From a virus: a stretch of DNA of 64,000 nucleotides. The stretch covers positions 27,578 through 91,577 of the IMG/VR virus record IMGVR_UViG_3300018080_003942, one strand, 5' to 3'. Below, piece after piece: positions 9,713-52,184 of this stretch (position 1 is the stretch's first letter; each line of letters starts with the position of its first letter). The translations under genes were made by a program, and so were the position numbers. The notes under the pieces are model-generated. The model saw only the letters and a program-made list of their open reading frames with translations, had not been told where the DNA came from and did no database searches.

Positions 9713-11150
9713 GGCAGCGGGCATCCTTGTAGGAGGCTAGCCGGCGGCGCCCGAGCGCGGCCAGAACGGGGGAGTTGGTGTGGACCGGGTCCACCACGAT
9801 CGGGACCGGCTTCCCGTCGACCTCTCGCTCGATACGCCCTCGGGTCTGGCGAACATCACGACGGGGAGAGGCGAGTACAGCGGCATCCTTCCATGGTACA
9901 TCAAGGGCCTTGTCAGCAATGCCGTAAGTGCAGAAGGTGACCGGCTTGTCGAGGGAGGCGTCCCGGCCGACGCGCCCAACCTTGGCATGCTTACCGAAGA
10001 ACAACCCGCTCGAGCCCGGATGCCGGGCTTCCCATAGCTCGTGCAGGTGGATGAGCTGCTTCTGGAACTGGCCGAATACCATGACCTGACGCCCCTTTTG
10101 GAACAGGTGGCCGACGATGTTAACCAACCAGGCTGAGTACGCAGGGTCAGCGATGACCGTCTGAATGTAGGCCGTGTAGTTGTGCTTGTCCTTCCAGGCG
10201 ACGTCCGGGGGAGTCACCATCGGGTTGAGCGGGGGCCGGCCCGGGCAGCTAGTGGGAAAGCCGGCGAAGTCCGGGCACTCACGGCATCCTGCGAGTGTTG
10301 TCATCCCGACCTTCGCCTTGCACCACGCCATCCGGTAGTCGTCGTACTCGACGAGGGTCGTAACTGGGTAGCGGTAGATCGTGGCAGGGACCAGCTTGGC
10401 CGCGGCTTCGACCACGTGGTTACCCAGCGCCGCCTTGAACACCCACTCGAGCCCATCCCGGCGATCCGGGGTGGCGGTCAGGGCGATGCTCCAGGTGAAG
10501 GCTAGGTTCGTGAGGCTGCCGAAAAAGCAAGGTGCTGAGAACACATGCGCCTCGTCGACGAGGAGCATGTCGAGTTCCATCGGGTCTTCGGCCCACTCTT
10601 GTCGCCAGAGGCTCTGACCGACCATGATCGTGAACCGAGCTCGCGTGTCTCGACGCATCTGCCCGTGGCCTCCGCCGAGGATCTCGACGGTGGCCTCGGG
10701 CAGGAAGCGCTCGATCGCACCTTTCCACTGCTCGGCGATGTCGACCTGATCGACCAGCACGCCGACCCGCGCCGCTTGCAACGCGTCAGCGCAGTAGAGG
10801 CCCATGACTGTCTTGCCAGTGCCGCAATCAGCCCGCAGAAGCAGCCCCTCCTTGCGAGGCAGCTCATGTAGGATCTCACTGACCGGCGTCTTCTGGTTGT
10901 CTCTCAGCTCGCCCTTGAACTGCCGCTGTGGGTGCTCTTGGATCGGAGCCCGAGCCGGCAGCGCTCGGGTGAAGTTCTCTAGCCAGAAGCGAGGTACAAG
11001 CAGGGAGCCGTCACTGAACTCATGCCACAACGGGAAGGGCTCTCGATCTCCTTCAGGGCGCGCGATAAGGTCTTGGTCCCGATCAAAGGGCCACAAGGCA
11101 GGATCGCCGAGGATCTCGGCAGGGACGTGGACGAGGCCGCGTAGTTTCAT
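9687..11150 (-). CDS. SF2 DNA helicase (UvsW-like)
   Basis: This 487-aa helicase has motif I RADCGTGKT (106-114), the DEAH-type motif II LLVDEAHVF, motif III ALTATPDRRDG and motif VI RDVRQTRGRIER, so both RecA-like lobes are present. A Cys-rich insertion (CRECPDF...CPG) lies between the lobes. UvsW-like enzymes unwind branched DNA and promote branch migration, which suits its place between RecA and nucleases. It overlaps the 138-aa gene start by 26 nt. Confidence 0.88.
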   Translation of the reverse strand: MKLRGLVHVPAEILGDPALWPFDRDQDLIARPEGDREPFPLWHEFSDGSLLVPRFWLENFTRALPARAPIQEHPQRQFKGELRDNQKTPVSEILHELPRKEGLLLRADCGTGKTVMGLYCADALQAARVGVLVDQVDIAEQWKGAIERFLPEATVEILGGGHGQMRRDTRARFTIMVGQSLWRQEWAEDPMELDMLLVDEAHVFSAPCFFGSLTNLAFTWSIALTATPDRRDGLEWVFKAALGNHVVEAAAKLVPATIYRYPVTTLVEYDDYRMAWCKAKVGMTTLAGCRECPDFAGFPTSCPGRPPLNPMVTPPDVAWKDKHNYTAYIQTVIADPAYSAWLVNIVGHLFQKGRQVMVFGQFQKQLIHLHELWEARHPGSSGLFFGKHAKVGRVGRDASLDKPVTFCTYGIADKALDVPWKDAAVLASPRRDVRQTRGRIEREVDGKPVPIVVDPVHTNSPVLAALGRRRLASYKDARCHVIDYPGL

Positions 11151-11817: not shown

Positions 11818-12896
11818 AGCCCTACTGGGAGGACAGTAAGCGGGTGATCGACGCGGAATCTAGCCGGTATCCCCCTAGTGGTGTCCTCCGTAGGGGTAGT
11901 CCGGGTCGGGGTGCGCCAGCGTCTGGTAGCGTATCTACTCACCATATGATGGTGTTCCAGTAGGCAGATCCCCGAGCTACCTCGGGTATTGGCAAGTTGG
12001 GCCATCCGCGTACTGATGCTCCGGGCCCACTGTCTGGCGTAGTACGCATTGGTAGTGTGGCCTAGAGGAGCATACGCACTCGGCCACTCCCACCCGATCC
12101 AGGAAGCTGCATGGTTGGGCAGCTTGATGCTCACTCGAGGAATATTGCGGGCCTCCTCAGACCAGCGGCGTCGGTGATAGGAGAGGTCCGTAACACCAAT
12201 ACTCCCATCAGGTACCAACGCGTTCATGAGCTCTCTTGGAGAGTACCACGCAGCGTTGGTTGCATACGCCCAGGCCGCGTACGGGTGGGCGGCGTAACGA
12301 AAGTACCTCCGCAACGCCATCCGCACCCCCTGCTTCGACGCCAGATCACCTGCCCGCACATTTGGTACTCGAATAGCTGGGATCAACCCGCGAACTTGAT
12401 CGAGCGGAAATAGCGTGTCAGGCCGGAACAGTACCGGGATTGCCACGCACCACACGCTCAAAGACTTGCATGACACTGAGCTGCGCTTGGAGTAGAAGGC
12501 ATAGATGACGCGCCACTGGAAGTTGGGAAATGTCATCTCCCACGACAGCTTCCCATAGCGCCCGGGAGGGGATGTGGGGTCGATGTGAGGCCGCTGCGTG
12601 CGGCCTCGGCAGCGGTAGCGTGCGTACATGAGCGACCGATCGTTTGGGCCTGACCACAGCATCTGCATCGCCGCAGCACGCCGCGCCTCCCACGTCATGC
12701 CGGCTGGGTTGTTGTTCAAGAAGCGCGACGCGGCTTCGGTCAGTCGATGATCTGCGACGTCGAAAGGAAAGCGGTCGGTGAGTGGGTCGAAGTCCCTAGC
12801 CGTGGCCGACTTCGTCGCCTGGAACCCGTAGACCGCCGCCCTTAGTCGCCAGGTCTCCGGGGGTCCGATCCTTGTCTTGAGTGATTTCGGCATCCT
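11814..12896 (-). CDS. Hypothetical Trp/Tyr/Arg-rich protein, about 360 aa
   Basis: An open frame extends to 13145, but that part is a shadow of the helicase gene. I place the start at the ATG at 12896 (MPKSLKTRIG), which has GGAG 8 nt upstream and overlaps the helicase 3' end by about 100 nt. The protein is rich in Trp, Tyr and Arg (WEWPSAYAPLGH, RYFRYAAHPYAAWAY) and basic, which would suit nucleic-acid binding. No catalytic motif or family is recognised. Confidence 0.6.
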   Translation of the reverse strand, partial: RMPKSLKTRIGPPETWRLRAAVYGFQATKSATARDFDPLTDRFPFDVADHRLTEAASRFLNNNPAGMTWEARRAAAMQMLWSGPNDRSLMYARYRCRGRTQRPHIDPTSPPGRYGKLSWEMTFPNFQWRVIYAFYSKRSSVSCKSLSVWCVAIPVLFRPDTLFPLDQVRGLIPAIRVPNVRAGDLASKQGVRMALRRYFRYAAHPYAAWAYATNAAWYSPRELMNALVPDGSIGVTDLSYHRRRWSEEARNIPRVSIKLPNHAASWIGWEWPSAYAPLGHTTNAYYARQWARSISTRMAQLANTRGSSGICLLEHHHMVSRYATRRWRTPTRTTPTEDTTRGIPARFRVDHPLTVLPVGL

Positions 12897-14742
12897 CGTT
12901 CTCCATATTGATGGCTTGAGGTTCAACACCCATCTCCTTGAGGAAAGGGCTGTCGATGTCGTATGTGGTGGTGTAGAGGTGGTTGATGGCGCGGGTAATC
13001 GCCACATAGGCGAGTCTCCGCTCCTCATCCTCACGGCCGTTCTTGTGTGGAATGAGCCCATCACAGAACCCGGCGATGAAGACAGTGGGGAACTCGAGTC
13101 CCTTGGCCCGGTGAATCGTGAGCAGCTGCACACGGGACCGGCCATCTTGGCGAGACTTGCTCTCCTGCTCGACGAGATTGACGTGGGTCAGGAACTCCTT
13201 GATCGTGCGGAAGCGCGGCAAGGTCTGCATTAGTACCCGAGACACGGCATCCATCATCTCGTCAGGATCCTTGCGCTGGTTGCGGGCAGCCAGTTCACGA
13301 ATGAACCCAGCAAAGCCGAGGCTCTGCCAGATGTGGTGGCCGATGTTGGCCGGCGTGTGACCCTCCTTGACCAACATGTCCAGGTCCTGGAGGAGCGTAC
13401 ACAGAGATCCCGCGGCCTGCTGTTGCCGGAACCCTCCCCGCGTAGCTGCCATGACTTGCATGACAGATGCGGCAGAGCCGTCCGACTTGCCCATGCACTC
13501 AGCCACCCAGTCCCGACGCAGAAACCGGTTGGGCTTGTTGAGCACCCACCGCAGCGACGTGATGTCGTTCGGGCGGGCTGCTAGCCGAAGGTAGCTGACC
13601 AGGGTGCGGATCTCGGTACGACCGTAGAACCCGCCTTGATCATCGATGACCTCATAGGGGATCTTCCGCATGCTGAGCTCATCCTCGAATGCGCCTGACT
13701 GGGCGTTCGTTCGATAGAGCACCGCGATGTCAGAGGCCATACCTCCGGCATCAAGGATCTCCTCGATCCGATCGGCCGTGTACTGCGCCTCCTCGACAGG
13801 ATGCTTCACACGGACCGAGGTGATAGCGCCCTCGCCTGTGAGCGTCGGTCGGAGGACCTTGTCCACTCGCAGGTCGTTGCACTTGATCAGCTGGTTAGCC
13901 GCGTCAAGGATCGGCGCCTGAGACCGGAAGTTCTCTTCCATCGAGATGGCAACCCCTCCGTAGATCTCAGGGAACTCGATGATGAAACGCGGGGAGCATC
14001 CCCGGAACCCATACACCGACTGATCATCGTCACCGACGACCACGAGGTTGCCTTTCTCGAGCTTCTTCAGGATCTCGGCCTGCGCCGGGTCAGTGTCCTG
14101 GAACTCATCGACCAGGATGTGATCCAGTCGATTCTTGAGCACGTCGACCAGTTCCGGGTCATCTCGGAAGAGCTGCAAGCAGTCGATGATCATGTCATCG
14201 AACAGGTACTTCCCGTTCTTCACGATCGACTGATGGAGCGCATGCAGGAGCTCGACATACCCCGGGCCTAGGTTCATATGCGCGTGAATGCGGTCAGTCA
14301 TCGCAAGCCACGCGTCGGGGTGAAACCCGTTGAGCTTGAGCAGGCTGATGTCCCGCAGCATGTCGGCAGGGACGCCAACGGCGTTCGGGGTTTCTCTGAG
14401 CAGCTCCTCGGCCCACTTGATGAGCAACCACTCCTCCCGACCCTCCACGACTTCGCGGTTTTGGTACTGGTTCGGGCAGCGGCGATTGAGAACCTTGAAG
14501 CAGAAGCTGTGGAAGGTGCCAATGAAGCTGCTGGGGGTGAGGGGCACCCCCACACGCTTGTTGAGACTCTCTGCCGCCTTCTTACTGAAGGTCAGCACCA
14601 ACTGGCTCTCGCCAGCCTCGGCATGCTTACGAATGCGCTCGACCAGGACGGTCGTCTTGCCGCTGCCGGCCACGGCGAAGATAACGAGGTTCGAGCCCTC
14701 GTGATCAATCGCCTTCTTCTGCGCCGCTGTGAAGGAGGTCAA
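12796..14742 (-). CDS. UvrD/Rep-family SF1A helicase
   Basis: This 648-aa 3'-5' DNA helicase has the full motif set: Q-motif TAAQKKAI (5-12), motif I AVAGSGKTT (23-31), Ib GTFHSFC, II ILVDEFQDTDPAQ, III VGDDDQSVYGFRG, V LTIHRAKGLEF and VI RRLAYVAITRA. Length matches UvrD/Rep. It probably removes proteins or unwinds DNA during phage replication and repair. It overlaps the 183-aa gene start region and the following gene. Confidence 0.93.
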   Translation of the reverse strand: MTSFTAAQKKAIDHEGSNLVIFAVAGSGKTTVLVERIRKHAEAGESQLVLTFSKKAAESLNKRVGVPLTPSSFIGTFHSFCFKVLNRRCPNQYQNREVVEGREEWLLIKWAEELLRETPNAVGVPADMLRDISLLKLNGFHPDAWLAMTDRIHAHMNLGPGYVELLHALHQSIVKNGKYLFDDMIIDCLQLFRDDPELVDVLKNRLDHILVDEFQDTDPAQAEILKKLEKGNLVVVGDDDQSVYGFRGCSPRFIIEFPEIYGGVAISMEENFRSQAPILDAANQLIKCNDLRVDKVLRPTLTGEGAITSVRVKHPVEEAQYTADRIEEILDAGGMASDIAVLYRTNAQSGAFEDELSMRKIPYEVIDDQGGFYGRTEIRTLVSYLRLAARPNDITSLRWVLNKPNRFLRRDWVAECMGKSDGSAASVMQVMAATRGGFRQQQAAGSLCTLLQDLDMLVKEGHTPANIGHHIWQSLGFAGFIRELAARNQRKDPDEMMDAVSRVLMQTLPRFRTIKEFLTHVNLVEQESKSRQDGRSRVQLLTIHRAKGLEFPTVFIAGFCDGLIPHKNGREDEERRLAYVAITRAINHLYTTTYDIDSPFLKEMGVEPQAINMENEDAEITQDKDRTPGDLATKGGGLRVPGDEVGHG

Positions 14743-15256
14743 AGTCGGACTCCGCGCTCGGGGGGTGAATGAAGGACTCGAAGTCCACGTTCTCCGGCTC
14801 GATGAGCGCTCGGAAGGCGTGGATCTGGCGGATGCGACGCCACGAGACTCCGCCCATCTCGGGGTCGATCGAGAGGATGAACTCGTCGGGGTCGAACGTC
14901 GTCTCGGCCACGAGGCCGTCGACGAAGAGATTGACTGCGTCCTCGATCCGGTTGGGATCGATCTCGATCACGTCGGCAGGCTCGGTCGGGCGGGCGATCT
15001 GGATGCAGTCGTTGAAGTGGTACATCTCGATCTTGCCTCGATAGACCACACGACCTCCGCTCTGCATGCAGTTGCGGATGCAGAGCTTGAGCAGGGCCAT
15101 CGAGACCTCGTGCGCCTGCGTGATACAGGCTCTGGGCTTCTGGGCGAAGTAGGGATTGCGCTTCATGGAAGGAAACCGAAAGGGGTAGAAGCCGAGGAAA
15201 TCATCAATGTCCCTAGACACCTCTGCCCAGGCTCGAGTGATTGGATCAACGTCCAT
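14705..15256 (-). CDS. Hypothetical protein, about 183 aa
   Basis: The ATG at 15256 (MDVDPITRAW) is preferred because the longer frame runs through the end of the HAD gene. Acidic protein with a cysteine-bearing helical middle (ALLKLCIRNCMQSGGRVVY) and a long Asp/Glu C-terminus. Its 3' end overlaps the helicase start by 38 nt. Family unknown. Confidence 0.65.
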   Translation of the reverse strand: MDVDPITRAWAEVSRDIDDFLGFYPFRFPSMKRNPYFAQKPRACITQAHEVSMALLKLCIRNCMQSGGRVVYRGKIEMYHFNDCIQIARPTEPADVIEIDPNRIEDAVNLFVDGLVAETTFDPDEFILSIDPEMGGVSWRRIRQIHAFRALIEPENVDFESFIHPPSAESDFDLLHSGAEEGD

Positions 15257-15968
15257 AGTCAGGACGTACACGCACGATGGTGTTGGCCCCGGTATCGCTG
15301 TAGTACAGCATTCCATCCAGACCGTCGCGGTCTGTGAACGGCGGGCCTAGGGACTCGCGCAGCTTGTTGAAACAGTCGAGTACCTGCTGATCGACGGGTA
15401 CGTCGGGCTGCTCATTGACACAGCAGATGACGCGGATGCAGAAGTCCAGCTCGCGACGACGTGGCATGGGCCCGGCTGCATCTAGGAGCTCTTGGAAGAC
15501 TGACTGGACCTGCTCGGTAGATACTTGAACGTGTTCTTCACCAGACTTATGACGCATTGAGCTCTCAGGACGGGGGTCGGTCCAAGAGTGCGCGCCCTCG
15601 ATCTGGGCCTTGGTAGGGAAGTCCTGTGGCCCTTCGAAGCGCCAGGCCCGGTCATCGATGTAGAGACGGGCGATGGGCTTGTGCTTGGGGAAGGTGATGC
15701 ACTTGAGGCCGCGCGTATGTTCGAGCCCGTACCACATCGGGGGGTTGGCGTGCTTCTTGAGCCAGCGGCGCATGGCTCGACGAGCCCGCCAACTCCGGCT
15801 GCGCGCCGAGACGATGGCGATGTCGTAGTCTTGGATCATCTTCCAGAGCCACGCGAGAGCGTGATTGATCGGCTCCCCCTGGACGTCGTGAGCCTTACCC
15901 GCAGTGGGGATGTAGCGGTGGATGACGCCGTCGAAGTCGACGCAGAGGTGTTGACGGAACTTCTTCAT
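15246..15968 (-). CDS. HAD-superfamily phosphatase-like protein
   Basis: The N-terminal half shows the HAD core: nucleophile motif CVDFDGVIH (Asp11, Asp13), motif II IVSARS and a late RLYIDDRAW acidic motif, as in small phosphatases of the BT0820/polynucleotide-phosphatase type. Substrate could be a nucleotide or DNA 3'-phosphate. The C-terminal 100 residues form an unassigned domain with several cysteines. It overlaps both neighbours. Confidence 0.75.
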   Translation of the reverse strand: MKKFRQHLCVDFDGVIHRYIPTAGKAHDVQGEPINHALAWLWKMIQDYDIAIVSARSRSWRARRAMRRWLKKHANPPMWYGLEHTRGLKCITFPKHKPIARLYIDDRAWRFEGPQDFPTKAQIEGAHSWTDPRPESSMRHKSGEEHVQVSTEQVQSVFQELLDAAGPMPRRRELDFCIRVICCVNEQPDVPVDQQVLDCFNKLRESLGPPFTDRDGLDGMLYYSDTGANTIVRVRPDYGR

Positions 15969-16198
15969 CGGCGATGTCTGGTATCCCGCTTGATCTCGCG
16001 GAAGTTGGTAGTGACGGCCTTGCCCTGACGGCGGTCAAAGATGTAGGCCAGCGTGCGGTTATCGGTGAAGACAGCGAGCGCCCGAGCGGCGCTCACCTGT
16101 CTTTTGAAGCTCTCGTGGTACTGGTACCGGTCGTGGGTGCCGTAGAACCAGACCTCGAAGCGGGGGACGCCCTTTTCAGGGTTCGGGATCCTCGTCAT
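15965..16198 (-). CDS. Hypothetical protein, 77 aa
   Basis: The ATG at 16198 (MTRIPNPEKG) is used; the upstream extension is the shadow of the next gene. Small basic protein with a beta-rich aromatic segment (FEVWFYGTHDRYQYHESF). It overlaps the HAD gene start by 4 nt. Family unknown. Confidence 0.6.
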   Translation of the reverse strand: MTRIPNPEKGVPRFEVWFYGTHDRYQYHESFKRQVSAARALAVFTDNRTLAYIFDRRQGKAVTTNFREIKRDTRHRR

Positions 16199-16724
16199 GA
16201 TCAGGGGGATGGCAACAGCCGTCACAGCCGTGGATGCCGAAGATGTCAGAGACGTGACCCTGCGCAGCGAAGAACGCGAGAGCATCGGGATCGGGGTGAC
16301 CGACGCCGTGCTCGCAGTGCCTCTCGGTCATGCCCGAGGCACGAATGCTCTTGGGCCAGTCCTTCATGTGGTGATCCGACGGGTTGTGGAAGGGGCAGTG
16401 GTGCCCCGCACAAGCGTCCGGCGGGTGTGCCGGGATCGGCTCGGGGTTGTTGGCTAGCCCCAAGGCGGCCAGATCATCAGCCACGGCGGCGCTGATTACA
16501 GCCTCGTGGGCAATCGCGGACCAGTGGCCGATCACGGCTCCGGTGCGGATGTTCGCCCACATTTTCGAGGTGTATGGCGGGTCAAGATCCTCGATACGTA
16601 TCCACGTACCCGCTAGACGGCCGGTTGGGATCGTGACCTTATAGCCGGGCTCTGCGTGTTCGATCCGCTTGACGATCGGGAGGCCTTCGATCTTCTTCCA
16701 GCTGTGCTCTTCTTGATCAGCCAT
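16176..16724 (-). CDS. Conserved Cys/His-rich phage protein
   Basis: 182 aa. The C-terminal half carries a dense Cys/His motif: CAGHHCPFHNPSDHHM then CEHGVGHPDPDALAF. I recall this CxxHxCPFH...GVGHPDPD pattern in many actinobacteriophage hypothetical proteins, though I cannot search. It is likely metal-binding. A final GCDGCCHPPDHD cluster may bind a second metal. It supports an actinobacterial phage origin. No activity is assigned. Confidence 0.75.
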   Translation of the reverse strand: MADQEEHSWKKIEGLPIVKRIEHAEPGYKVTIPTGRLAGTWIRIEDLDPPYTSKMWANIRTGAVIGHWSAIAHEAVISAAVADDLAALGLANNPEPIPAHPPDACAGHHCPFHNPSDHHMKDWPKSIRASGMTERHCEHGVGHPDPDALAFFAAQGHVSDIFGIHGCDGCCHPPDHDEDPEP

Positions 16725-16950
16725 CGGCTACATCTCCTTCGACCGTGGGGGTTGTCCAGGCAGCCGCTAGGTGGTCGCCGGGGATCTCGAGTGTGATGAG
16801 CTTCATGTGGCTGCTAGATAGCTCCGCCTCCTCAAGGGCTTGCGCCCAGCCTGTGGGGTTCTCGTCAATCGTGTACTCATCCCACGCGTCTTTGAGCCAG
16901 GCTTCGGACCAGTTGCCGCTGTCCGACAGCCAGATGGTGTGGATCTTCAC
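16717..16950 (-). CDS. Hypothetical protein, 77 aa
   Basis: Small acidic Trp-rich protein (SGNWSEAWLKDAWDEYTID). It overlaps both neighbours by 4-8 nt. Family unknown. Confidence 0.6.
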   Translation of the reverse strand: MKIHTIWLSDSGNWSEAWLKDAWDEYTIDENPTGWAQALEEAELSSSHMKLITLEIPGDHLAAAWTTPTVEGDVADG

Positions 16951-43333: not shown

Positions 43334-43963
43334 CTAGCCGTCCGTCGTTACCCAGGTGGTCGTCCAGTTACCAGCTCCGGCGTCCGGCCCTGTGTAGGTC
43401 ACCTGCATCACCTGGTCCGTCGTGAGGTCGACCCTCTGCACGTTTGGTTGCGGCTGGGGCCGGGGCTCCTCGTAGGTGAAGCGGCTCCAGAACTGATCCT
43501 CGTCGATAGCCTTCAGCTCGTTTGAGCGCCGGCGGATATCGACCGTACCTGGAGCTAGCTTGAATAGTGAGACGTGGAAAGTGCCTAGGAGCTCTGTCGC
43601 ATTGGCCTCTTGGAGTTGCTCGTGACCGTCCAGGTGCCGGAACGGGTACCACCTGTCCGTGACGCCCTGCATCCTGCCTCCGATGTCCGAGAAGTGCGGG
43701 TAGTCTCGCATGCACGCATTGAAGATACGCTTCCACCATCGGGAGGAGTAGAGCGGATTGGTGCGAGCTCCGATATCTCGGCCCCTGAGGTGCTCTTCAA
43801 TGTGTTGGAGGACCCTGAAGACGACAGCGCGGTGATCGCGATCCGTCGGGCCTCGAGAGCGCAGGGTGCGGAGCGGGAACGTGGCTACGTGAATGCTCTG
43901 CTCCTGGAGGTGGCGGGTGTTCGTGATGTGGAGGACCTGGATAGGGCGGGGCCGGCGACTCAT
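43334..43963 (-). CDS. Hypothetical protein, 209 aa
   Basis: Start at 43963 (MSRRPRPIQVLHI), with a 4-nt overlap with the upstream 236-aa gene. Contains Arg-rich and aromatic segments (SRWWKRIFNACMRDYPHF, RWYPFRHLDGHEQL) and a beta-rich C-terminus. Second gene downstream of the large structured RNA. Family unknown; a nucleic-acid partner is possible from composition. Confidence 0.6.
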   Translation of the reverse strand: MSRRPRPIQVLHITNTRHLQEQSIHVATFPLRTLRSRGPTDRDHRAVVFRVLQHIEEHLRGRDIGARTNPLYSSRWWKRIFNACMRDYPHFSDIGGRMQGVTDRWYPFRHLDGHEQLQEANATELLGTFHVSLFKLAPGTVDIRRRSNELKAIDEDQFWSRFTYEEPRPQPQPNVQRVDLTTDQVMQVTYTGPDAGAGNWTTTWVTTDG

Positions 43964-44670
43964 GGCTTGGTCAGGGTCAGGATGGTGATCATGTAAGGCG
44001 TGCGCAGGAGTAGGTACTTGTCCTGGACTGCCCATAGCACGGGGCTCTTGCCTAGGAGGATCAGGCACTGGCGGAGCTTGGTGACGTTGACGGCCGGGTA
44101 ACGGCGCTCACCCGAGATGGGGTACTCAGTCGGCTCGGCTCGAAGACCCTGCTGTGGGCAGATCTCCATGAACTGGTAGTTCAGGGCTGACTGATGTGCT
44201 CGCGATTGCGGGATGACACCCAGCGGGTCTCCGGTCACGCGCTTGAAGGCTGCGGAACGAGCAGCCAGTTGCTGCATCAGATCTGCGTGCGGGTAGTCAG
44301 GGCCGGCCTTCACTGGCGCAGCCCTCGGGGTGTCGAGCTGCGTGCTGCTGTAGATCGTGGTGACGGTCATGTTGCAGACCATTCGATCTAGCGGCCAGTC
44401 CTCGACCCAGGTCAGCTCTTTGGTGATCGAGGGGTGCAGTTGGTAGAGCAGGCGGCCTCGACCGCGTGCTAGGTAAGGGCGCTTCCACGCAGCCAACCGG
44501 TGCGAGCCTTCGACCCGTTGAGGTGTTTGGTACTCCGCAAAGGGGCCGGCCGGTTCTGTCGGTTCTGCGGCTTTTCGAGGCTGCTCCAGGTGGGTCAGCA
44601 GGGTAAGGACTCGCGCCTGATCACCCGCGCTCAGGGCCTCGATACGCTCAGCGATGGTCTTGTCGGTCAC
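43960..44670 (-). CDS. Hypothetical protein, 236 aa, first gene after the structured RNA
   Basis: GTG start at 44670 with GGAGC 7 nt upstream; the extended frame to 44811 runs into hairpins and is rejected. N-terminus helical (KTIAERIEALSAGDQARVLT), later segments aromatic and basic (AAWKRPYLARGRGRLLYQL), C-terminus beta-rich (YLLLRTPYMITILTL). No family recognised. Its position directly 3' of the giant RNA makes it a candidate partner. Confidence 0.6.
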   Translation of the reverse strand: MTDKTIAERIEALSAGDQARVLTLLTHLEQPRKAAEPTEPAGPFAEYQTPQRVEGSHRLAAWKRPYLARGRGRLLYQLHPSITKELTWVEDWPLDRMVCNMTVTTIYSSTQLDTPRAAPVKAGPDYPHADLMQQLAARSAAFKRVTGDPLGVIPQSRAHQSALNYQFMEICPQQGLRAEPTEYPISGERRYPAVNVTKLRQCLILLGKSPVLWAVQDKYLLLRTPYMITILTLTKP

Positions 44671-44721
44671 TAAAAAGCTCCTTGGTGAATCAACCGGAGC
44701 AGAGCTCCGGAGGTGAAAGGT

Positions 44722-44749
44722 GCCCCACCCGCCGAGAGGCGAGTGGGGC
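44722..44749 (-). repeat. 12-bp hairpin near the 3' end of the RNA
   Basis: GCCCCAC-T-CGCC pairs with GGCG-G-GTGGGGC on the minus strand, with a T-G wobble that would be C-A on plus; loop TCTC. No T-tract follows, so it is structural or leader RNA, not a terminator. Confidence 0.6.
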
Positions 44750-44900
44750 GGTTGCCAGGATGCACACGAACTACTGGAGTGGTGGACCTGAGCTGAGCCG
44801 GAGTATGGCACCGGATCGAGCCGGATTCAGTGACTGCGTATAGCTCGTTGGGTTTGTCTACCTCGTGGATGAGCTCGGAGTCACGACTCGAGCGGAGTCG

Positions 44901-45058
44901 CCTGCCTCGAGCTCATTGTTGCCATCATCTCGTCTGGTTGATGAGATGGCGGCGGCTCCTCCTCTCCTGTTATCCTGCGCTTACAGTATTCTCGGTGCCC
45001 GAGCTCGACCCATCTCGTCAACCTGACGCGATGATGGCAACAATGAGCTCGAGGCAGG
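44901..45058. repeat. Long inverted repeat (28-bp perfect, about 48-bp total)
   Basis: 44901-44928 and 45031-45058 are exact reverse complements. Pairing extends inward (44929-44948 with 45011-45030, 17 of 20 identical, one mismatch a U-G), leaving a 62-nt apical loop. Flanked by smaller hairpins at 44884-44900 and 45057-45077. Confidence 0.85.
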
Positions 45059-45210
45059 CGCCGCAGCGAGAGGCGCCGTGGCTCAGCCTCGTGGTGGGCA
45101 AACCCACGAGTTATTCGCAGACACTGAAGCCGGCCCGGTTGACATGCTCTGGCTCAGCTCAGGGTCTACCCGTAGGTGCAAGTGTGGCCGAGGTTGCTGT
45201 TGCGCTATCT

Positions 45211-45225
45211 GCGGCGATGCGCCGC
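45211..45225. repeat. Triloop hairpin GCGGCGATGCGCCGC, copy 1
   Basis: Perfect 6-bp arms with a 3-nt loop; the same 13-15 nt recurs at 45557 and 45811. Flanking sequence differs between the copies. Confidence 0.7.
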
Positions 45226-45431
45226 AGGACCCTCAAGTCAAGAGGGAATAGCTCTTCGTGTGCGGGGATTCCAAGGCAAGAGCCTGGATGGGCGCGCAGA
45301 GCATGATCCCGGTCGTGGAGGCGTGCCCGAGCTTTGTACGCGACCCGGTTCGGGTCGAGGATAAAGCGAAGGACCAGCACGCTGTAACGATCCGTGGATT
45401 ATGCTCCGCGCTGTCCCAGCCAGCGCTTCGT

Positions 45432-45545
45432 TGGTAGTGGGAGGCGCCTCCGCTAGGAGGCGACGTCCTCGAGTTGCGCTACTGAAGCGACCACACATGC
45501 TGGCATGTGTAGCTTCAGGTGCGCAGTGCTCGAGGCCCACGACCA
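45432..45545. repeat. Three-way-junction fold in the structured RNA
   Basis: Closing helix TGGT-GTGGG/CCCAC-ACCA (45432-45441 with 45536-45545) holds a 7-bp hairpin (45445-45462) and a long arm of stacked helices: CCTCGAG/CTCGAGG, GCGC/GCGC, CTGAAGC/GCTTCAG and ACACATGC/GCATGTGT. Confidence 0.75.
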
Positions 45546-45556
45546 GTCGTACAGTG

Positions 45557-45571
45557 GCGGCGATGCGCCGC
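45557..45571. repeat. Triloop hairpin, copy 2
   Basis: GCGGCGATGCGCCGC, extended by one more G-C pair (45556-45572). Confidence 0.7.
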
Positions 45572-45810
45572 CTGAAGACGTTGTGGATTAGGCCTCCGGT
45601 AGGCCCGTTCCAGTCTTTCTACTCCCTTGGAAAGGTAGTCACCTCTTGCGAGGCTGGCTGGCTACCTTGGTATCGGCGCTCGTAGAGACTACCCGGTCAC
45701 ACGCCCGCCGGAGGCGGGCTTGTGGACGCGTGGTCTCAACGTAATGTGTCACAGGAGACAGCTCGAGGCGCAGCTCGAGCGGGCCTCCGGCCACAGTTTC
45801 TATCACTTGA

Positions 45811-45823
45811 CGGCGATGCGCCG
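45811..45823. repeat. Triloop hairpin, copy 3
   Basis: CGGCGATGCGCCG, one pair shorter than the other copies. Follows a GGCC-TCC-GGCC hairpin at 45782-45792. Confidence 0.65.
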
Positions 45824-45988
45824 CCGCGGAAGTCAGATGGGCTAGCTAGACCACTTCTTTCCTTGCTCCGCCGAAGATGTACCTGTTGGCAGCCCTGGTA
45901 CTGGGCTTTTGGCTATGAAGAACGGATCATCGGGGCCAACTACCCTCCTGCTCTTCGTGCCTGTTGGTACCGGCCTTTGGCCGGCAGC

Positions 45989-46021
45989 CGAGCCTGCTCC
46001 GGATTATGTGGAGCAGACTCG
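45989..46021 (-). repeat. 12-bp hairpin at the 5' end of the RNA
   Basis: On the minus strand CGAGTCTGCTCC pairs with GGAGCAGGCTCG through a T-G wobble (C-A on plus), with a 9-nt loop. It starts about 15 nt after the stop codon of the ubiquitin-like gene. Confidence 0.65.
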
Positions 46022-46035
46022 GTTCACTTGGTGCG

Positions 46036-46503
46036 CTAGCCGCGCTCCTTGACGGGGACCTTCATGATGAGGACGTCGCCCTCCTTGAGGGTCATCCCGT
46101 CGGTCACCTCCTGGCCGCCGATGTGCGGCTTCGACCCCTCGGGGGTGCCGAAGCGGCGAGCGTACTCGGTCCGCGCGTCGGCGACCGAGGTGCCGGCGGC
46201 GACGTTGAGGCGGCCGGGCTCGCCCAGACCGTCGGTGGCCGCGGCGGTGACCGTGGCGACCGGACCCGCCTGCGGGGTCTCCTGGGTCGTCGGCGCCGTC
46301 GTGGCGGTGGGAGCGGTGCGCGTCACGGCGACGGCCACCTCGGTGTCCGTGGGCAGACCCGTGGTCTGGTCCCACTTGGTCGGATCCGAGTGGTCGACCT
46401 CGTAGAGCACGGGGTTGCCGGCCGCGTCGTTCGCGGGGGAGTCGGCGTAGCGGATGCGACGGTTGAGGGTGTCGAACGCGGGGCGCTTGATGTTTCCGGT
46501 CAT
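46036..46503 (-). CDS. Ubiquitin-like beta-grasp protein (PRTRC-C-like)
   Basis: 155 aa. The low-complexity Thr/Ala middle (about 55-95) separates an N-terminal segment from a C-terminal beta-grasp-like domain (RLNVAAGTSVADARTEYARR, then VTDGMTLKEGDVLIMKVPV), which has the terminal turn (GxxLKEGDxL) of ThiS/ubiquitin folds. It ends KERG, a single terminal Gly, not GG; PRTRC-C proteins end similarly in a single Gly. With E1-, E2- and JAMM-like genes immediately upstream it is the likely modifier. Assignment depends on context and fold pattern. Confidence 0.65.
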   Translation of the reverse strand: MTGNIKRPAFDTLNRRIRYADSPANDAAGNPVLYEVDHSDPTKWDQTTGLPTDTEVAVAVTRTAPTATTAPTTQETPQAGPVATVTAAATDGLGEPGRLNVAAGTSVADARTEYARRFGTPEGSKPHIGGQEVTDGMTLKEGDVLIMKVPVKERG

Positions 46504-46526: not shown

Positions 46527-47261
46527 TCAGGTGAGTTGGAGGGAGTGCTGCGTCTGCGGCGCGGCTTTCCCACCGAGCACGTCGACCACGATGGTGTTGA
46601 AGCTGGGCTTCATCGGGTCGTCGATCGTCAGGACCTGGGCGAACCAGGTCTGCAACATGGCCTGGGCGACCGCTTGGTTCGCCAGAGCCAGTTGCGGCTG
46701 CGTCTCGTACTCCTGGGTGCAGTCCAGCTGATCGGGAAACTCGTTCCCAGGAGTCTCATGACGCATCTCGGGGTTCCGTTCGGTGAGCGACGCGCAGACG
46801 TCCTCGCTGTTGATGCGGCGCCAGAGCATGGCCTGGCCGCTGTCGAGGTCGTTGCCGCCGTCCACCCACGTGAACTCGTCGAGCTTGTCGAGCTGCTCCT
46901 CGAGGAAGCAGCGGGTCTTGTTGTTGTCCACGCAGCCGAACAGCGTGACGCCCTCGACCAACCACTCACGGTGGTGGTTCAGGAGCCGATCGCTCAGGTA
47001 CATGGAGATCACCCGGACGTCCAGGCCCGGGAAGGTGTCTCGCAGGGTTCGGGCCATGATCTCGGCTTTGTTCTGGCCGATGGCCGCGGCGCCGTGCTGG
47101 CGCGCGAGGTTGTGGTCCTCGACCTCGTCGCCGTCGATGATGAAGAGGGTCGGATTCTGGATCCGATCCCCCACCATCTCAGGCGGGTGGGCGAGAAGAC
47201 GAGCGAGCGGCTCGGCTAGGTGGTAGCCGATGCCGCCCGCTCCGAGGATGGCGTAGATCAT
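46527..47261 (-). CDS. ThiF/E1-like adenylyltransferase
   Basis: 244 aa from the ATG at 47261; the longer frame is shadow of the JAMM gene. Rossmann motif LGAGGIGYHL (6-15), acidic pair IDGDEVEDHNLARQ (42-55, with Arg54-Gln55), Lys65 in GQNKAEI and CVDNNKTR (110-117) are the ThiF/MoeB/E1 signature set that binds ATP and activates a ubiquitin-like C-terminus. Cys156 or Cys181 could form the thioester. It resembles PRTRC ThiF. Separated from the JAMM gene by 4 nt and from the modifier by 23 nt. Confidence 0.88.
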   Translation of the reverse strand: MIYAILGAGGIGYHLAEPLARLLAHPPEMVGDRIQNPTLFIIDGDEVEDHNLARQHGAAAIGQNKAEIMARTLRDTFPGLDVRVISMYLSDRLLNHHREWLVEGVTLFGCVDNNKTRCFLEEQLDKLDEFTWVDGGNDLDSGQAMLWRRINSEDVCASLTERNPEMRHETPGNEFPDQLDCTQEYETQPQLALANQAVAQAMLQTWFAQVLTIDDPMKPSFNTIVVDVLGGKAAPQTQHSLQLT

Positions 47262-47265
47262 GAGG

Positions 47266-49164
47266 TCAGGGGTAGATGGGGAGGGTGGCTTCTGTTTCGG
47301 ACTTGTTGCAGAAGGCGATCTCCTCGAGGAGGACATCGTCTTCCATGTCGTCGGGGTCCTCGAGGACTCCGTCCATCTCGAGCACCAGTCGATCCATCTG
47401 ATCGAGGATCTCTTGGTAGTCCTTGCGGTAGGGAATGCCGGCGTTCTGGGCCGCCTTGCGGACGACAAAGTAGGTCAGCCGGAACCACTCGAGCAGGACG
47501 CCGTCGGAGTCCTCTCGCGAGAATGCCTCGACGTAGCTCAGGTTGGTCTCGATCACGGTCTCGATCACGGTGTCGATCGACGTCTCGGGGAACACAGTTT
47601 TCACCGTCGGGTCGGCGTAGACGTATTTCGAGAGCTTGTCGATCCGGGCATCCAGTGCGATCGACTTGAATAGCCGGTCGAGAAGGTCGTCGATGCGATT
47701 CATCACCTCGTCGATGACGTCTCGAACCAGCATGCTGTAGAGGGTCTGACGACTCTCGGATGCGCTGTTCTGCGCTTCTTCGACGATCTCTTCGATCGTG
47801 GGGGCGTTATCGAACCACTCACTGGTCGAGGCGTGGTTCATGAGCAGATGCAGGGCTAGGGCCGTAGCGTTGCTCGACGTCAGACTGTCCTTGAACGAGG
47901 TGCAGTACGCCCACACGGCTCGTGGGAAGGTCGTTTGCTGACCCTCCGCCTTCTTGATCAGCTGAAGGGGGTAGTGCGCTTGCGGTGAGATCACCATGCC
48001 GTAGAAGCCGGTGTGCATCCGCTGGATGCGGAACTTCTTATCAGCGACCAGCGAAGGGCCAGAGGCTGTCTTGCTGACAGGTACCAGTGAGGTAGTCGTC
48101 TTCTTCGTCGTCTGGCCAAGGCCACCCTGCGCCCCCGTACCCCCAGTCTTGCCGCCAGGAGTCGAAGGCGTACCCGCTTTGCCGCCGGTCCACTTTTTCG
48201 AGCCATAGCCGCCATACCTGCTGGTCTTGGCTTTCTTCTCCGCCTCCTTGATGGCCTCGCTGGCCAACTTGAACGTGGTAAGACAACGGGCGGCCTCGCC
48301 CATCCTGTCCTTCCAACGCCCCAGGCTTTCCATCGACCCACAGAAGGTCATCACAGTGCTCGTGTCGACGTCCTCGAGCTTGTCGACGCTGAGACCGACG
48401 GCGAGCTCGTCGGGATCGACCCCGGCCTTCAGCATGGCTTCGCACAGTCCGGGGTGGGCGACCCGGTTCAGCCACAGCTGAATCAGATCCAGGCCGCCCT
48501 CCACGAAAGGGATGTCGAACAACTCCTCGAGACCGGTCGCGTGGCGGATGCCCTGCGCCTTCTCGTTGCGGTAGCCGGGGAGGGCGGTGACGAACGACGG
48601 GCACACCGAGAAGGGCGGCTTGTCCACGTTCCCGAAGGTGATGTGGAAGCCCGTCTGGTTGAGCTCGTTGGCGTCGTCGGTCGAGCTGTGGTAGGCTCCA
48701 CCAGCGCCGTGACTGTGCGCGGTGCCGACGCAGATGAACTCGACAAGCTCTCCATCCTCGCAGATGGGGCAAGCGTTGCCGGCTTCGAGCTCGATCGAGC
48801 CGATGCGACAGGTCGTGCAGAAGCTCTTGACGTTGGGATCGTACTTCACGTGCCCCGCGGAGGCGGTGTACCACGGCGGACTGACGAGGGTGTAGGCGTC
48901 GTCGACCGGCCCTCGGTGGAAGAGCACGAAGGCCTCGGTCTTCCACAGGCGGTAGACCTCGGCGAAGTAGCGGTAGACGAACATCGTCTCCGCCATGGAG
49001 ATCTTGGGCCAGTTGGTGAGGTCCAGGTCACGCTGGATCTGGTCGGTTTCACCGAGGTCCTCGGCCCGGGCGGGAACGAAGGCCTGAGCCCAGGCGGCCC
49101 CGCCTGGGCCGATGGTCTTCAGCACGTGGGCTTGGTTGCCCTTGTAGTAGATGTCGGTGGTCAT
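47266..49164 (-). CDS. JAMM/MPN-domain isopeptidase-like protein (PRTRC-A-like)
   Basis: 632 aa from the ATG at 49164 (MTTDIYYKGN). Zinc-ribbon cysteines C116-C119 and C132-C135 are followed by the JAMM metalloprotease motif: His150-Ser-His152, ten residues, Asp163. JAMM enzymes remove or mature ubiquitin-like proteins. The 450-residue C-terminal part is helical with a Gly/Thr/Lys-rich linker (about 325-375) and has no recognised domain; it is much longer than a plain JAMM protein. Its start overlaps the preceding gene by 4 nt. Confidence 0.8.
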   Translation of the reverse strand: MTTDIYYKGNQAHVLKTIGPGGAAWAQAFVPARAEDLGETDQIQRDLDLTNWPKISMAETMFVYRYFAEVYRLWKTEAFVLFHRGPVDDAYTLVSPPWYTASAGHVKYDPNVKSFCTTCRIGSIELEAGNACPICEDGELVEFICVGTAHSHGAGGAYHSSTDDANELNQTGFHITFGNVDKPPFSVCPSFVTALPGYRNEKAQGIRHATGLEELFDIPFVEGGLDLIQLWLNRVAHPGLCEAMLKAGVDPDELAVGLSVDKLEDVDTSTVMTFCGSMESLGRWKDRMGEAARCLTTFKLASEAIKEAEKKAKTSRYGGYGSKKWTGGKAGTPSTPGGKTGGTGAQGGLGQTTKKTTTSLVPVSKTASGPSLVADKKFRIQRMHTGFYGMVISPQAHYPLQLIKKAEGQQTTFPRAVWAYCTSFKDSLTSSNATALALHLLMNHASTSEWFDNAPTIEEIVEEAQNSASESRQTLYSMLVRDVIDEVMNRIDDLLDRLFKSIALDARIDKLSKYVYADPTVKTVFPETSIDTVIETVIETNLSYVEAFSREDSDGVLLEWFRLTYFVVRKAAQNAGIPYRKDYQEILDQMDRLVLEMDGVLEDPDDMEDDVLLEEIAFCNKSETEATLPIYP

Positions 49165-49586: not shown

Positions 49587-50425
49587 CGGACCACCTCTCG
49601 CCACTTCTCGGCCGCCGTACCGAGCTCCCGGCCCAGTACGATCTCATCGACGTCCGTCTGCCAGGTCATGATGCGATCCTCGGTCCAGCGCTGCCATCGA
49701 CAGAACTGCCAGAGCATGACAGTGTTCATGTTCAGGCCCAGATCACGCCGCCTGTCGTAGTCGGTGTAGTCACCTTCGGGGAGTTGCTCGAAGTACGGGA
49801 CCTCTCGAAGCGCTTCGGGAACCTCAAACCCCTCAGGGAGCGGCCCGCTGAAAGGTGGCATGGTCAGGGAGTGCTCGTAGTGCGCGTTGTAGCCGGACTC
49901 GTTGATGAGCTTGAGGACCATCTCCGGGATCGACTGGAGCCCGTTGTACCGGTACTGGCGGAACACAGCACCCGTGCACATGCCTCCCGTATCTTGCTGG
50001 TTCGGTAGGAATGATTTGTACAGAACCGGGGTGTACCCCGCCTCCAGATGCGGCTGCTGCTTGGTGAAGAAGCAGCGGGCATCGGAGAGGCGCCCGTCGT
50101 AGATCGAGATGATGAAGACGCGCGCAGGCATGGCGACCAGGAATCGAAGACCCTCCGGCCAGCCGCGGTTCTCGCGGACGTCGATGGAGATCCTCTCAGC
50201 CCGCGGAGGCACGACTGCCATGAAGTGCTCGTTGTGGGCATCCTTGGTGTGTGCCAGGATGTTTACGTAGGGGTGGTACGGAAAGAGGGCGCCAGCGCGC
50301 CGGCCTCGTTCCTCGAGGGCGGTCACGACGTCTTCTTCCCGCGTGATGCGGTTGACGTGAACCGTTTGATGGATCACGTGACCATCGACGATGACGAGTC
50401 GATCGTGGGTTTCGAAGTTGGTCAT
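49583..50425 (-). CDS. E2-like conjugating protein (PRTRC-B-like)
   Basis: 280 aa. The segment LYKSFLPNQQDTGGMCTGAV (about 135-154) with conserved Asn, Gly and Cys150 follows the PRTRC system protein B pattern (N...G.vC.G), a family placed among prokaryotic E2-like proteins. Upstream strands (FLVAMPARVFIISIYDGRL) fit the UBC-like fold. Cys150 would carry the modifier. Shares ATGA overlaps with the reverse transcriptase gene and the 141-aa gene. The E2 call is by pattern and context. Confidence 0.65.
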   Translation of the reverse strand: MTNFETHDRLVIVDGHVIHQTVHVNRITREEDVVTALEERGRRAGALFPYHPYVNILAHTKDAHNEHFMAVVPPRAERISIDVRENRGWPEGLRFLVAMPARVFIISIYDGRLSDARCFFTKQQPHLEAGYTPVLYKSFLPNQQDTGGMCTGAVFRQYRYNGLQSIPEMVLKLINESGYNAHYEHSLTMPPFSGPLPEGFEVPEALREVPYFEQLPEGDYTDYDRRRDLGLNMNTVMLWQFCRWQRWTEDRIMTWQTDVDEIVLGRELGTAAEKWREVVR

Positions 50426-51525
50426 GGGAGGTACGCGCGTGTCTCGGCGCTGTAGTTGGTGGGGGTGTTGTGGTGCACGTCTTGCGCGACACGCAGTTGT
50501 AGTTGGAGCGAGGCTCCTTGATCAGGGTTGATGAAGTTGACGTGGTTGACGAGGCCGGCGAGGTGGTCAAAGTTCACCGGCACAGGGCCTCGGTGCGTCA
50601 GCTCTCCCCCACGGGGACAGCGGCCGAAGTGCGCGTCGCAGATGATCTTGTGCAGCCGGGCGCGAAGCGCGCGCCGTCGAGGCCTGGGAGCGCTTAGCTT
50701 CTCGTTGACGACGACGCCGCAGACCGTCATGCGACTGCCGATGGAGCGGAATCGGATCTTTTCGGGGGCGACCTTGTAGCCCAGCTTTTTCAGGAACCCG
50801 ATGACGGGGTACTGGAACTGGTACAGCTTTCTGTAATCCGCCGTGAAGGTCATGTCGTCGCTATAGCGGGTGTACGCGATCGGCAGGAGTCTGATCTGAG
50901 TCTGCGTCTTTCGCCGGCGCTCTCCGTGGTTGTCGACCCACCGCATCGTGGGGTTGGTCCGCCAGGACTCGATCAGCTTCAGGATGCCGAAGTCCACCTG
51001 AGCCCCTGCCAGGTTGGAGAGGAAGGGGGACGTGGGGGCTCCTTGTGGTAGGCCACCATCCAAGAAGCAGGCGCGTTTGACTCTGTCAAGGAAGAGCCTG
51101 TCGGCACGTGACATCGGTTGCATGTACCCCCTGGTCAGGAAGTACTCCAGCTGCTCGAGGACGACGTGGGGAGACACGGACGGGAAGAAGTCCCGCAGAT
51201 CGATGTCCAGCTTGTACCGGTGACCTACATGCGGGGCGGCGTTGGTGTGGATACCACGCTTGCGGACGTAGGCATGAGCTGCTGGGGAGGCCCCGATCCC
51301 GAGCGCTTTGAGCTCGCTGAGGATGAGCTTTTGAGCAGCCATTAGCTCCGGGCAAGGGATCTGGAGCTTTCGCATCTTCTGACGTGTCCGACCGTTCGAA
51401 AGCGTCTCGAGTACCGGGACTTCTCGACCATCCCGGGTACGCCTGGTCTTGGGGATTCGTGCGAATCGGTAGTGCTCAGCTTGAGCGGTGTCCGTCAGGA
51501 CATTGAATGATGGGTAGCCAGCCAT
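50422..51525 (-). CDS. Retron-type reverse transcriptase
   Basis: 367 aa. Catalytic core visible in order: NAxxH (TNAAPH, 94-99), motif A LDIDLRDFFPSV (106-117), motif B GLPQGAPTSPFLSN (158-171), catalytic YSDD (221-224; Ser replaces the usual Ala), LGYKVAPEK (248-256) and VCGVVVN (268-274, in the place of the retron VTG motif). NAxxH plus the V-x-G motif points to the retron branch, not group II introns or DGRs. No extra domain is fused. It heads an overlapping gene chain with ubiquitin-like conjugation genes, an association I do not know from described retrons. Confidence 0.93.
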   Translation of the reverse strand: MAGYPSFNVLTDTAQAEHYRFARIPKTRRTRDGREVPVLETLSNGRTRQKMRKLQIPCPELMAAQKLILSELKALGIGASPAAHAYVRKRGIHTNAAPHVGHRYKLDIDLRDFFPSVSPHVVLEQLEYFLTRGYMQPMSRADRLFLDRVKRACFLDGGLPQGAPTSPFLSNLAGAQVDFGILKLIESWRTNPTMRWVDNHGERRRKTQTQIRLLPIAYTRYSDDMTFTADYRKLYQFQYPVIGFLKKLGYKVAPEKIRFRSIGSRMTVCGVVVNEKLSAPRPRRRALRARLHKIICDAHFGRCPRGGELTHRGPVPVNFDHLAGLVNHVNFINPDQGASLQLQLRVAQDVHHNTPTNYSAETRAYLP

Positions 51526-51534
51526 GATCTACCC

Positions 51535-51585
51535 TCAGATGACGGCGCAGATTGCGCTCAAGGCAAGAAGTAGCATGTGCTTCAC
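51535..51585 (-). CDS. Possible 16-aa hydrophobic leader peptide
   Basis: GTG at 51585 overlaps the upstream TGA (GTGA) and the stop is just before the reverse transcriptase ribosome site (GAGGG). The peptide after the first three residues is hydrophobic (LLLALSAICAVI). It may couple translation or be a mini membrane peptide. Confidence 0.3.
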   Translation of the reverse strand: MKHMLLLALSAICAVI

Positions 51586-52184
51586 TCCGTGGTTTGAGGA
51601 AGTAGCGGGAGGTCCGCCTGGTGAAAGGCCTGGAAGATCGCCGAGGCGACGGTCTTCAGACGGCTTTCGAAGATCAGGTGGTCCGGGTGAGACATCTCCC
51701 CAGCGGGCGGGAGCTCTTTGAACAGCCGGTCGATGATGGCTACGAGCAGGTCGTTAGCGTCGGCCTGGCTGACCAGGAGGCTCCGGGGGCGGAGGTTGAT
51801 GTTCAGATTGGAGGCTATGCCCCGTAGCACCGGTGGACGGGACCGGGCCGCGTGGACGGCGAAGGCGATTGAGGCTAGCCGGTGGTTGTTGTCGGCCGCA
51901 GACGGTGTGGTGGTGGCGGGGTTGTGCTTGCGGAGCGGGTCCGTGTCGGGGACCGGGTCGGGCAGCACCAGGGGACCTACGCCGTTTTTGGCCAATCGGT
52001 GGTAAAGGCTTAGAGCTGCCAAAGCCCCGAGTCCCATAGCCGGCAGCAATGCGCGGTTGGAGACTCGAGCGGGGCGTGGTGCGTCGACTGAGTCGGTCGA
52101 CCACCAGGCGGACAGCCCTTCACGAACGGGCCCTTCATAGAGGGGCCACGTCTTCGTCAAGGCATCAATGACGGGGACGTACAT
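51582..52184 (-). CDS. Hypothetical protein, 200 aa, first gene of the RT operon
   Basis: Contains a possible transmembrane stretch (ALLPAMGLGALAALSLY, about 46-62), a Pro-rich linker and a helical C-terminus (DLLVAIIDRLFKELP). No family recognised. As the first gene upstream of the reverse transcriptase it could be its effector or regulator. Confidence 0.6.
   Translation of the reverse strand: MYVPVIDALTKTWPLYEGPVREGLSAWWSTDSVDAPRPARVSNRALLPAMGLGALAALSLYHRLAKNGVGPLVLPDPVPDTDPLRKHNPATTTPSAADNNHRLASIAFAVHAARSRPPVLRGIASNLNINLRPRSLLVSQADANDLLVAIIDRLFKELPPAGEMSHPDHLIFESRLKTVASAIFQAFHQADLPLLPQTTE

Follow-up and report, generated by a model that had tools for sequence, protein, structure and literature searches.

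A putative giant multi-hairpin RNA at the 3' end of a viral operon for a retron-type reverse transcriptase and ubiquitin-like pathway proteins

A viral operon headed by a reverse transcriptase (RT) gene is followed by a 1,365-nt gap that is a real structured non-coding region and folds far better than shuffled sequence on both strands. The window analysed here spans 64 kb, bases 27578-91577 of the 91,577-base virus record IMGVR_UViG_3300018080_003942. The RNA and its architecture are well supported, and an architecturally matching gap at the syntenic place in a second phage (L011) bears out the first-pass annotation, which had proposed that the gene cassette is followed by a giant, ornate non-coding RNA. 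We give about even chances to the reading that this giant multi-hairpin RNA is the partner of the RT, its hairpins holding several RT molecules and its long rod serving as template or scaffold. We infer the link between RT and RNA from synteny, shared anatomy, enrichment of a hairpin class beside phage RTs, the RT tree, and the lack of room for an upstream non-coding RNA. The features are listed in Table 1.

Table 1. Coordinates of the putative RNA, its structural elements and the neighbouring genes in the window.
Feature	Position	Strand	Evidence or remark
Putative giant structured non-coding RNA (whole gap)	44671..46035	-	Non-coding in six frames; MFE versus shuffles; Rfam-negative; syntenic L011 gap
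3'-terminal hairpin, 10 bp	44690..44716	-	Centroid fold
Giant rod, 390-nt unbranched hairpin, ~150 bp	44781..45170	-	-0.617 kcal/mol/nt, z -14.6
Repeated hairpin copy 3, CG[CAU]CG	45209..45227	-	Repeat family D1; hairpin-class count
Fourth hairpin of the same class, CG[AAC]CG	45341..45357	-	Hairpin-class count
Repeated hairpin copy 2, CG[CAU]CG	45556..45572	-	Repeat family D1; hairpin-class count
Repeated hairpin copy 1, CG[CAU]CG	45809..45825	-	Repeat family D1; G-U in minus sense only
5'-terminal hairpin, 13 bp	45988..46022	-	Part able to pair with the RNA 3' end instead
Putative ubiquitin-like protein, single Gly at C-terminus	46036..46503	-	Position after ThiF; sequence
ThiF/E1-like enzyme, PRTRC_ThiF-like	46527..47261	-	ThiF 9e-14, above Pfam cut-off; PRTRC_ThiF 9e-15, under cut-off
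JAB-domain protein, PRTRC_A-like	47266..49164	-	Prok-JAB 3e-5, just under cut-off; PRTRC_A 6e-4
Prok-E2_D-like protein, 280 aa	49583..50425	-	4-nt overlap with RT; related to L011 11034-11918, E 3e-8
Retron-type reverse transcriptase, first of five coupled genes	50422..51525	-	RVT_1 4e-14; PADLOC; Ec86
Hydrophobic micro-ORF, 13 codons, before RT	51535..51576	-	Read by eye
Small putative membrane protein	51582..52184	-	Syntenic small ORFs elsewhere

The gap is flanked by minus-strand ORFs at 43960-44670 and 46036-46503. Codon scores, trained on 12 ORFs of which one was out of frame, were negative over the gap in all six frames and positive in the annotated frame on either flank, in agreement with the earlier description of about 1.35 kb without a gene. 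The gap is one of four of at least 300 nt left in the window by a crude gene finder, which puts its start at 44812 because it accepts an upstream GTG for the 43960 ORF. The MFE was -770 kcal/mol on the plus strand, where dinucleotide shuffles averaged -582 (sd 10.6, n=30), and -716 kcal/mol on the minus strand, where their average was -531 (sd 12.6, n=40). Blastn of the gap against 50,697 phage and 72,556 plasmid records returned zero matches, and a search against its own contig recovered only the gap itself and its own rod. Nor is the gap linked to other parts of the window by any repeat of at least 40 nt. On these two grounds a template/variable repeat pair, and with it a diversity-generating retroelement, was rejected.

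The minus-strand centroid fold contains 19 hairpins of at least 5 bp, which confirms the earlier count of more than 15 stem-loops. One of the 19 is a rod of 149 bp (151 bp in the MFE structure). When the rod is taken out, the remaining 850 nt still reach z -11.1. In 96 non-gap stretches the longest unbranched helix averaged 32 bp, with a single one of 128 bp in a coding region of the related locus L012. We judged the rod by energy rather than by number of base pairs because that coding stretch, despite its length, is far weaker (z -6.3 versus -14.6 and -16.8 for the rods of the window and L011). All three occurrences of the core of the repeated short hairpin in the 91.6-kb contig fall inside the gap. 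An inverted repeat, I5 (45994-46007/44689-44702), joins the two ends of the gap. Pairing of the RNA ends in the manner of a1/a2 is weak, with 12 of 14 positions complementary in the window (a value reached by 9 of 300 shuffles) and 11 of 14 in L011 (28 of 300), and both ends also form local hairpins.

Relatives came from alignment-based scans of IMG/VR; in the scan with L011, 256 were confirmed and the best 80 of the 256 were kept. Scans of IMG/VR with single-protein queries (the flanking proteins and the RT) had found none. L011, a 183-kb phage contig, carries the best RT match (43% identity) among these best 80 of 256 relatives. Its genes have the order and orientation seen in the window, namely RT, E2-like, JAB, ThiF and ubiquitin-like (Ubl), and at the same place after the Ubl gene there is a gap of 1,677 nt without a gene (15210-16886). 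This gap folds to -783 versus -560 for shuffles (MFE/shuffle ratio 1.40) and contains a 400-nt rod at 15916-16315 with -0.613 kcal/mol/nt and z -16.8. The corresponding intergenic region is thus structured and syntenic, while its sequence cannot be aligned with that of the window (blastn, no match at E 1e-3). Two common words of the window and L011, GACAAACCCA and CGTGGGTTTG, were dropped after being judged by reasoning to be at chance level.

A short hairpin recurs in both gaps, in three copies with the loop CAU in the window and in four copies with the loop GUAG in L011. We aligned the seven copies, which were chosen by sequence repeats and are not independent within a genome. Read in the operon sense, 48 of the 49 pair cells (98%) were standard pairs, compared with 86.8% in shuffles. 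Three of the seven pairs had changed on both sides, which 7 of 500 shuffles matched, although the counts for the third and fourth pairs rest on few sequences. The covariation score was reached by 0 of 500 shuffles, and slid controls scored lower. Thus, the stems of the repeated hairpins covary across the window and L011.

The same alignment bears on the strand of the RNA. All four wobble cells in the seven copies are G-U in the operon sense and A-C in the other. The first-pass annotation had favoured a minus-strand RNA, naming two hairpins that would be continuous on that strand only. This holds for copy 1, and the minus strand is further favoured by the four G-U cells and by operon orientation. 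Bulk wobble counts do not add to it: the whole fold has 46 G-U pairs on the plus strand and 18 on the minus strand, a difference of 28 that is uninformative because shuffles are equally asymmetric (mean 25, sd 6.8), and a strand call from these counts was dropped. Neither single-mismatch helix counts nor base composition at unpaired sites held a strand signal. The motif CG-N3-CG equals its own reverse complement and therefore does not fix the strand; four such hairpins are also present on the plus strand. Good folding on both strands and the replication genes a few kb downstream would suit inverted repeats acting as DNA, in a replication origin or a packaging or recombination site. G-U wobbles, however, are meaningful for RNA only, although four cells are too few to be decisive, and the flanking genes are co-directional, so the gap is not a divergence point. 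We regard such a DNA-level element as very improbable.

The putative RNA follows the last gene of a minus-strand operon of RT, Prok-E2_D-like, JAB, ThiF/E1 and ubiquitin-like genes, and a consensus search found no promoter or terminator belonging to the gap itself. The latter result, together with the position between co-oriented genes, could also be explained if the gap is no free RNA but a long, structured 3' UTR or intercistronic leader with a part in protecting, processing or insulating the operon mRNA; a rod of 150 bp would be an RNase III site. Such a function hardly calls for 1.4-1.7 kb with repeated covarying hairpins, which far exceeds the needs of stability or processing, and at the same place L012 has an ordinary hairpin-plus-T-run terminator, as read by eye. 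We consider the UTR or leader improbable.

Judged by profile matches, the window RT is of the retron type. It matches PADLOC RT_III-A at 2e-44 along with many other retron models, the RT of retron Ec86 among PDB sequences at 2.7e-20, and NCBIfam retron_St85_RT at 2e-38, the last being under the cut-off of the model. NAxxH and VTG are the names of motifs of retron RTs; the window RT has NAAPH and an intact catalytic YSDD, with VCG where VTG is expected. Matches to Drt2 (E 1.4e-4) and group_II_RT_mat (2e-10) are both far under cut-off, and a group II intron, for which the gap gave no Rfam match either, was rejected. The space before the RT gene is 56 nt in the window and 39 nt in L011, so there is no room for a canonical upstream non-coding RNA, and the giant gap is the sole large non-coding stretch of the operon. 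By eye, a hydrophobic micro-ORF of 12-13 codons directly precedes the RT in four of the five RT+PRTRC cassettes (window, L011, L013 and L109), with peptides that are similar but not identical.

The other operon genes resemble the ThiF, JAB, Prok-E2_D and Ubl set of PRTRC cassettes of phages and plasmids; here, in contrast, an RT stands at the head and the giant RNA comes after. Within this set ThiF alone is above its Pfam cut-off, and the gene order is common to L011. Profile matches in the relatives are also under cut-off: the syntenic L012 and L013 proteins match Prok-E2_D at E 0.009 and 0.036, and the L011 counterpart of the ubiquitin-like protein matches the beta-grasp TGS domain weakly at E 0.007. 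That L011 protein (14766-15209) lacks the terminal Gly of its relatives, a difference that would bear on conjugation. L012, L013, L109 and L011 (9548-9916) have small ORFs that are syntenic to the small putative membrane protein of the window and contain a segment rich in Gly and Ala. In Bacillus phage vB_BauM_KLEB27-3, ThiF and PRTRC_A-like genes occur together.

In phage gaps near RTs, many hairpins have CG-NNN-CG or UG-NNN-CG at the tip, with UUU as the commonest loop. We defined a class as a stem, [C/U]G, a 3-nt loop and CG, and counted it by rule in gaps of at least 500 nt at 106 viral RT loci after dropping five near-copy gaps. There were 34 class hairpins in 15.1 kb upstream of RTs (2.25/kb; 16 of 19 gaps), 24 in 24.5 kb downstream (0.98/kb; 12 of 26 gaps) and 6 in 45.5 kb of all other gaps (0.13/kb; 4 of 50 gaps), so that the density of the class beside RTs is 8 to 17 times that in other phage gaps. 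The giant gap of L011, at a distance of over 2.5 kb from the RT, was counted among the others. In near-RT gaps the strand-specific form UG-N3-CG was found 26 times in the RT sense and a single time on the opposite strand. Within 700 nt before the RT match, at least one class hairpin in the RT sense is present at 60 of 107 viral and 33 of 80 cellular loci, and on the opposite strand at 16 of the 107 viral loci; within 700 nt after the match, the class is present at 4 of 107 viral and 14 of 80 cellular loci. An earlier count had used hand-picked gap sets, in which two of the 32 'far' gaps were actually 1.1 and 2.9 kb from an RT. It gave 30 and 21 hairpins in near-RT gaps versus 1.1 and 1.75 in shuffles, and 6 versus 3.25 in other gaps; the rule-based densities are lower but concordant. 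The hairpin class is what sets near-RT gaps apart; length alone hardly separates them. Gaps of at least 700 nt are present at 28 of 106 loci within -3/+4 kb of the RT and at 25 of 106 farther away, and a rule that RTs adjoin large gaps by length alone was set aside as weak.

The window RNA has four class hairpins in sense in 1.36 kb, compared with a mean of 0.28 and a maximum of 2 in 100 shuffles. L011 has one three-base-loop hairpin, which is not above shuffles, and three of a four-base-loop form (shuffle mean 0.11, maximum 2). The loops are CAU and AAC in the window and GUAG and UAA in L011. The RT of retron Ec86 binds a stem of 8 bp capped by a UUU loop, and that of Ec73 a stem of 9 bp whose loop has three bases (PMC6868368); for Eco1 a variant library identified the loop as the recognition motif, with U required at loop positions 2 and 3 (PMC11754653). 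By this comparison, the enriched class resembles in shape the published retron RT-recognition hairpin.

The RT tree joins the window and L011 as sisters (98/94) and puts both in a clade (100/99) of five RT+PRTRC cassettes, of which only these two have the giant form. The remaining members, L012, L013 and L109, have neither a giant gap after the Ubl gene nor a class hairpin within 1.5 kb before the RT, and L012 has none within 5 kb downstream of the RT either. The L012 RT keeps YADD. An RT of this clade can thus exist without such an RNA, and L012, with YADD yet RNA-less, is the strongest point against strict dependence of RT and RNA on each other. The gaps upstream of the L013 and L109 RTs reach z -5.8 and -4.3 and look msr-msd-like by eye, again without the hairpin class. 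The RTs of L013 (9962-11014) and L109 (9944-11047) have YCDN in place of YxDD; going by this motif, they are possibly inactive, though kept with the same ubiquitin-like genes.

The first-pass annotation had likened the RNA to GOLLD and ROOL. Kinship to these or to OLE is not supported: no Rfam family reached gathering level over the gap, GOLLD, ROOL and OLE were absent among the seven weak Rfam matches up to E 10 at 44500-46200, and the 64-kb window contains no tRNA or tmRNA. The first-pass annotation had not noted the link to a retron-type RT, which we take to be the more informative context. GOLLD and ROOL, large RNAs of phages whose function is unknown, form cages made of RNA alone and are often close to tRNA islands (PMC12286853). 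The window RNA shares with GOLLD, ROOL and OLE large size, a high degree of structure and unknown function, and with the first two a phage origin. It differs in its 390-nt rod, its repeated CG-N3-CG hairpins and its RT operon, and we did not file it under any of the three because neither a covariance-model match nor a tRNA setting was found. It might nevertheless be an ornate RNA like GOLLD or ROOL, structural and perhaps self-assembling, that happens to sit in an RT operon and is unrelated to the RT. Similar size, hairpin number and phage setting speak for this, as do the sister cassettes with an RT and without a giant RNA, which argue that the two can part. Besides the missing Rfam match and the lack of a nearby tRNA, the enrichment of the hairpin class beside RTs and the location of the RNA inside the RT operon in both phages argue for a connection with the RT, and we hold an RNA unrelated to the RT to be rather unlikely.

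If the RNA is the partner of the RT, it would be made, at about 1.36 kb, as the 3' part of the minus-strand operon of RT and ubiquitin-like genes, or be processed from the operon transcript. Its short three-base-loop hairpins of the retron recognition type, at least four in number, would let one RNA hold several RTs. The 390-nt rod is a candidate for the arm that serves as template or scaffold, comparable to the msd hairpin of retrons, and the RT or the particle may be a target of modification by the ubiquitin-like genes. Further observations run counter to this reading. The RNA is about 4.4 kb downstream of the RT gene and does not adjoin it, and the loops of the window and L011 differ from those of Eco1, which requires U at both positions 2 and 3.

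Several features of the system recall retrons. The RT is retron-type by profile, the stem/three-base-loop hairpins are like those that retron RTs bind, and a long hairpin could take the part of msd, so that by analogy the giant RNA may well work like a retron RNA. The retron RNAs known so far measure a few hundred nucleotides, and retrons have mostly been studied as bacterial anti-phage defences. The window RNA differs in its 1.36-kb length, in having several recognition-type hairpins and not one, in loops that are not UUU, and in accessory genes that form a ubiquitin-like conjugation set. It was not filed as an ordinary retron because a retron non-coding RNA adjoins the RT gene upstream, whereas the structured RNA here is far downstream. 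The DRT2 and DRT9 defence systems also combine an RT gene with a dedicated structured non-coding RNA; the window RT falls with retrons, however, and its RNA is much larger. The open PMC literature, covered mainly at abstract level, yielded neither a phage retron-type RT with a giant RNA nor an RT-PRTRC cassette.

More tentatively, and with appreciable doubt, we propose that large phages carry giant multivalent retron-type RNAs of 0.5-2.2 kb with 1-6 recognition hairpins. Such RNAs would gather several RTs into one particle, here together with a ubiquitin-like conjugation machine, and RT-DNA would be made from the long rod during infection. The window and L011 would form one family, and islands with GP88 and glycosyltransferase genes in AT-rich phages another. 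If true, a phage-borne RT with a 1.4-1.7 kb multi-hairpin RNA and an E1/E2/JAB/Ubl operon would reverse the picture of the retron as an anti-phage defence. It would also tell what one large 'ornate' phage RNA does and make the role of large phage RNAs testable, and [C/U]G-N3-CG hairpins beside RTs would be a sequence signature for finding more.

The islands are conserved in AT-rich large phages (L014, L029, L050, L051, L054, L058, L068, L094, L105 and L110) and consist of an RT, proteins of ~165-200 aa and ~70 aa, a GP88 family protein, a long structured gap and a glycosyltransferase. Their gaps measure 0.67-2.2 kb with a GC content of 0.38-0.47 versus 0.34-0.38, a structure ratio of up to 1.37, and no Rfam match in the loci scanned. 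Among 30 glycosyltransferase loci, four are without an RT, all of them cut off by contig ends. Gaps found through the glycosyltransferase neighbour have class counts of 1 (L227), 1 (L240), 3 (L246), 2 (L247) and 3 (L250). The L014 gap (9105-10193) contains four identical tandem hairpins at 29-nt spacing, and the L051 gap (12326-13274) three copies of a CCGGG-type hairpin that differ in their loops and are spaced by 22 nt. A group I intron with a homing-endonuclease-like ORF interrupts the GP88 gene region in L014 (7590-7852) and L090 (10939-11201), and the glycosyltransferase gene of L054 (13631-15970) has a seeming intein (Intein_splicing 6.5e-8, slightly under cut-off).

Other loci have further gene arrangements. 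In three AT-rich phages (L204, L205 and L215), genes for JAB, ThiF, a Ubl with Gly or GC at its end and another ThiF-like protein lie near a gene resembling that for RNA polymerase beta', with no RT in the stretch seen. Phage-borne tmRNA genes are present in L019 (11370-11775) and L071 (11480-11933), two loci where an RT relative and a match to ThiF are also found.
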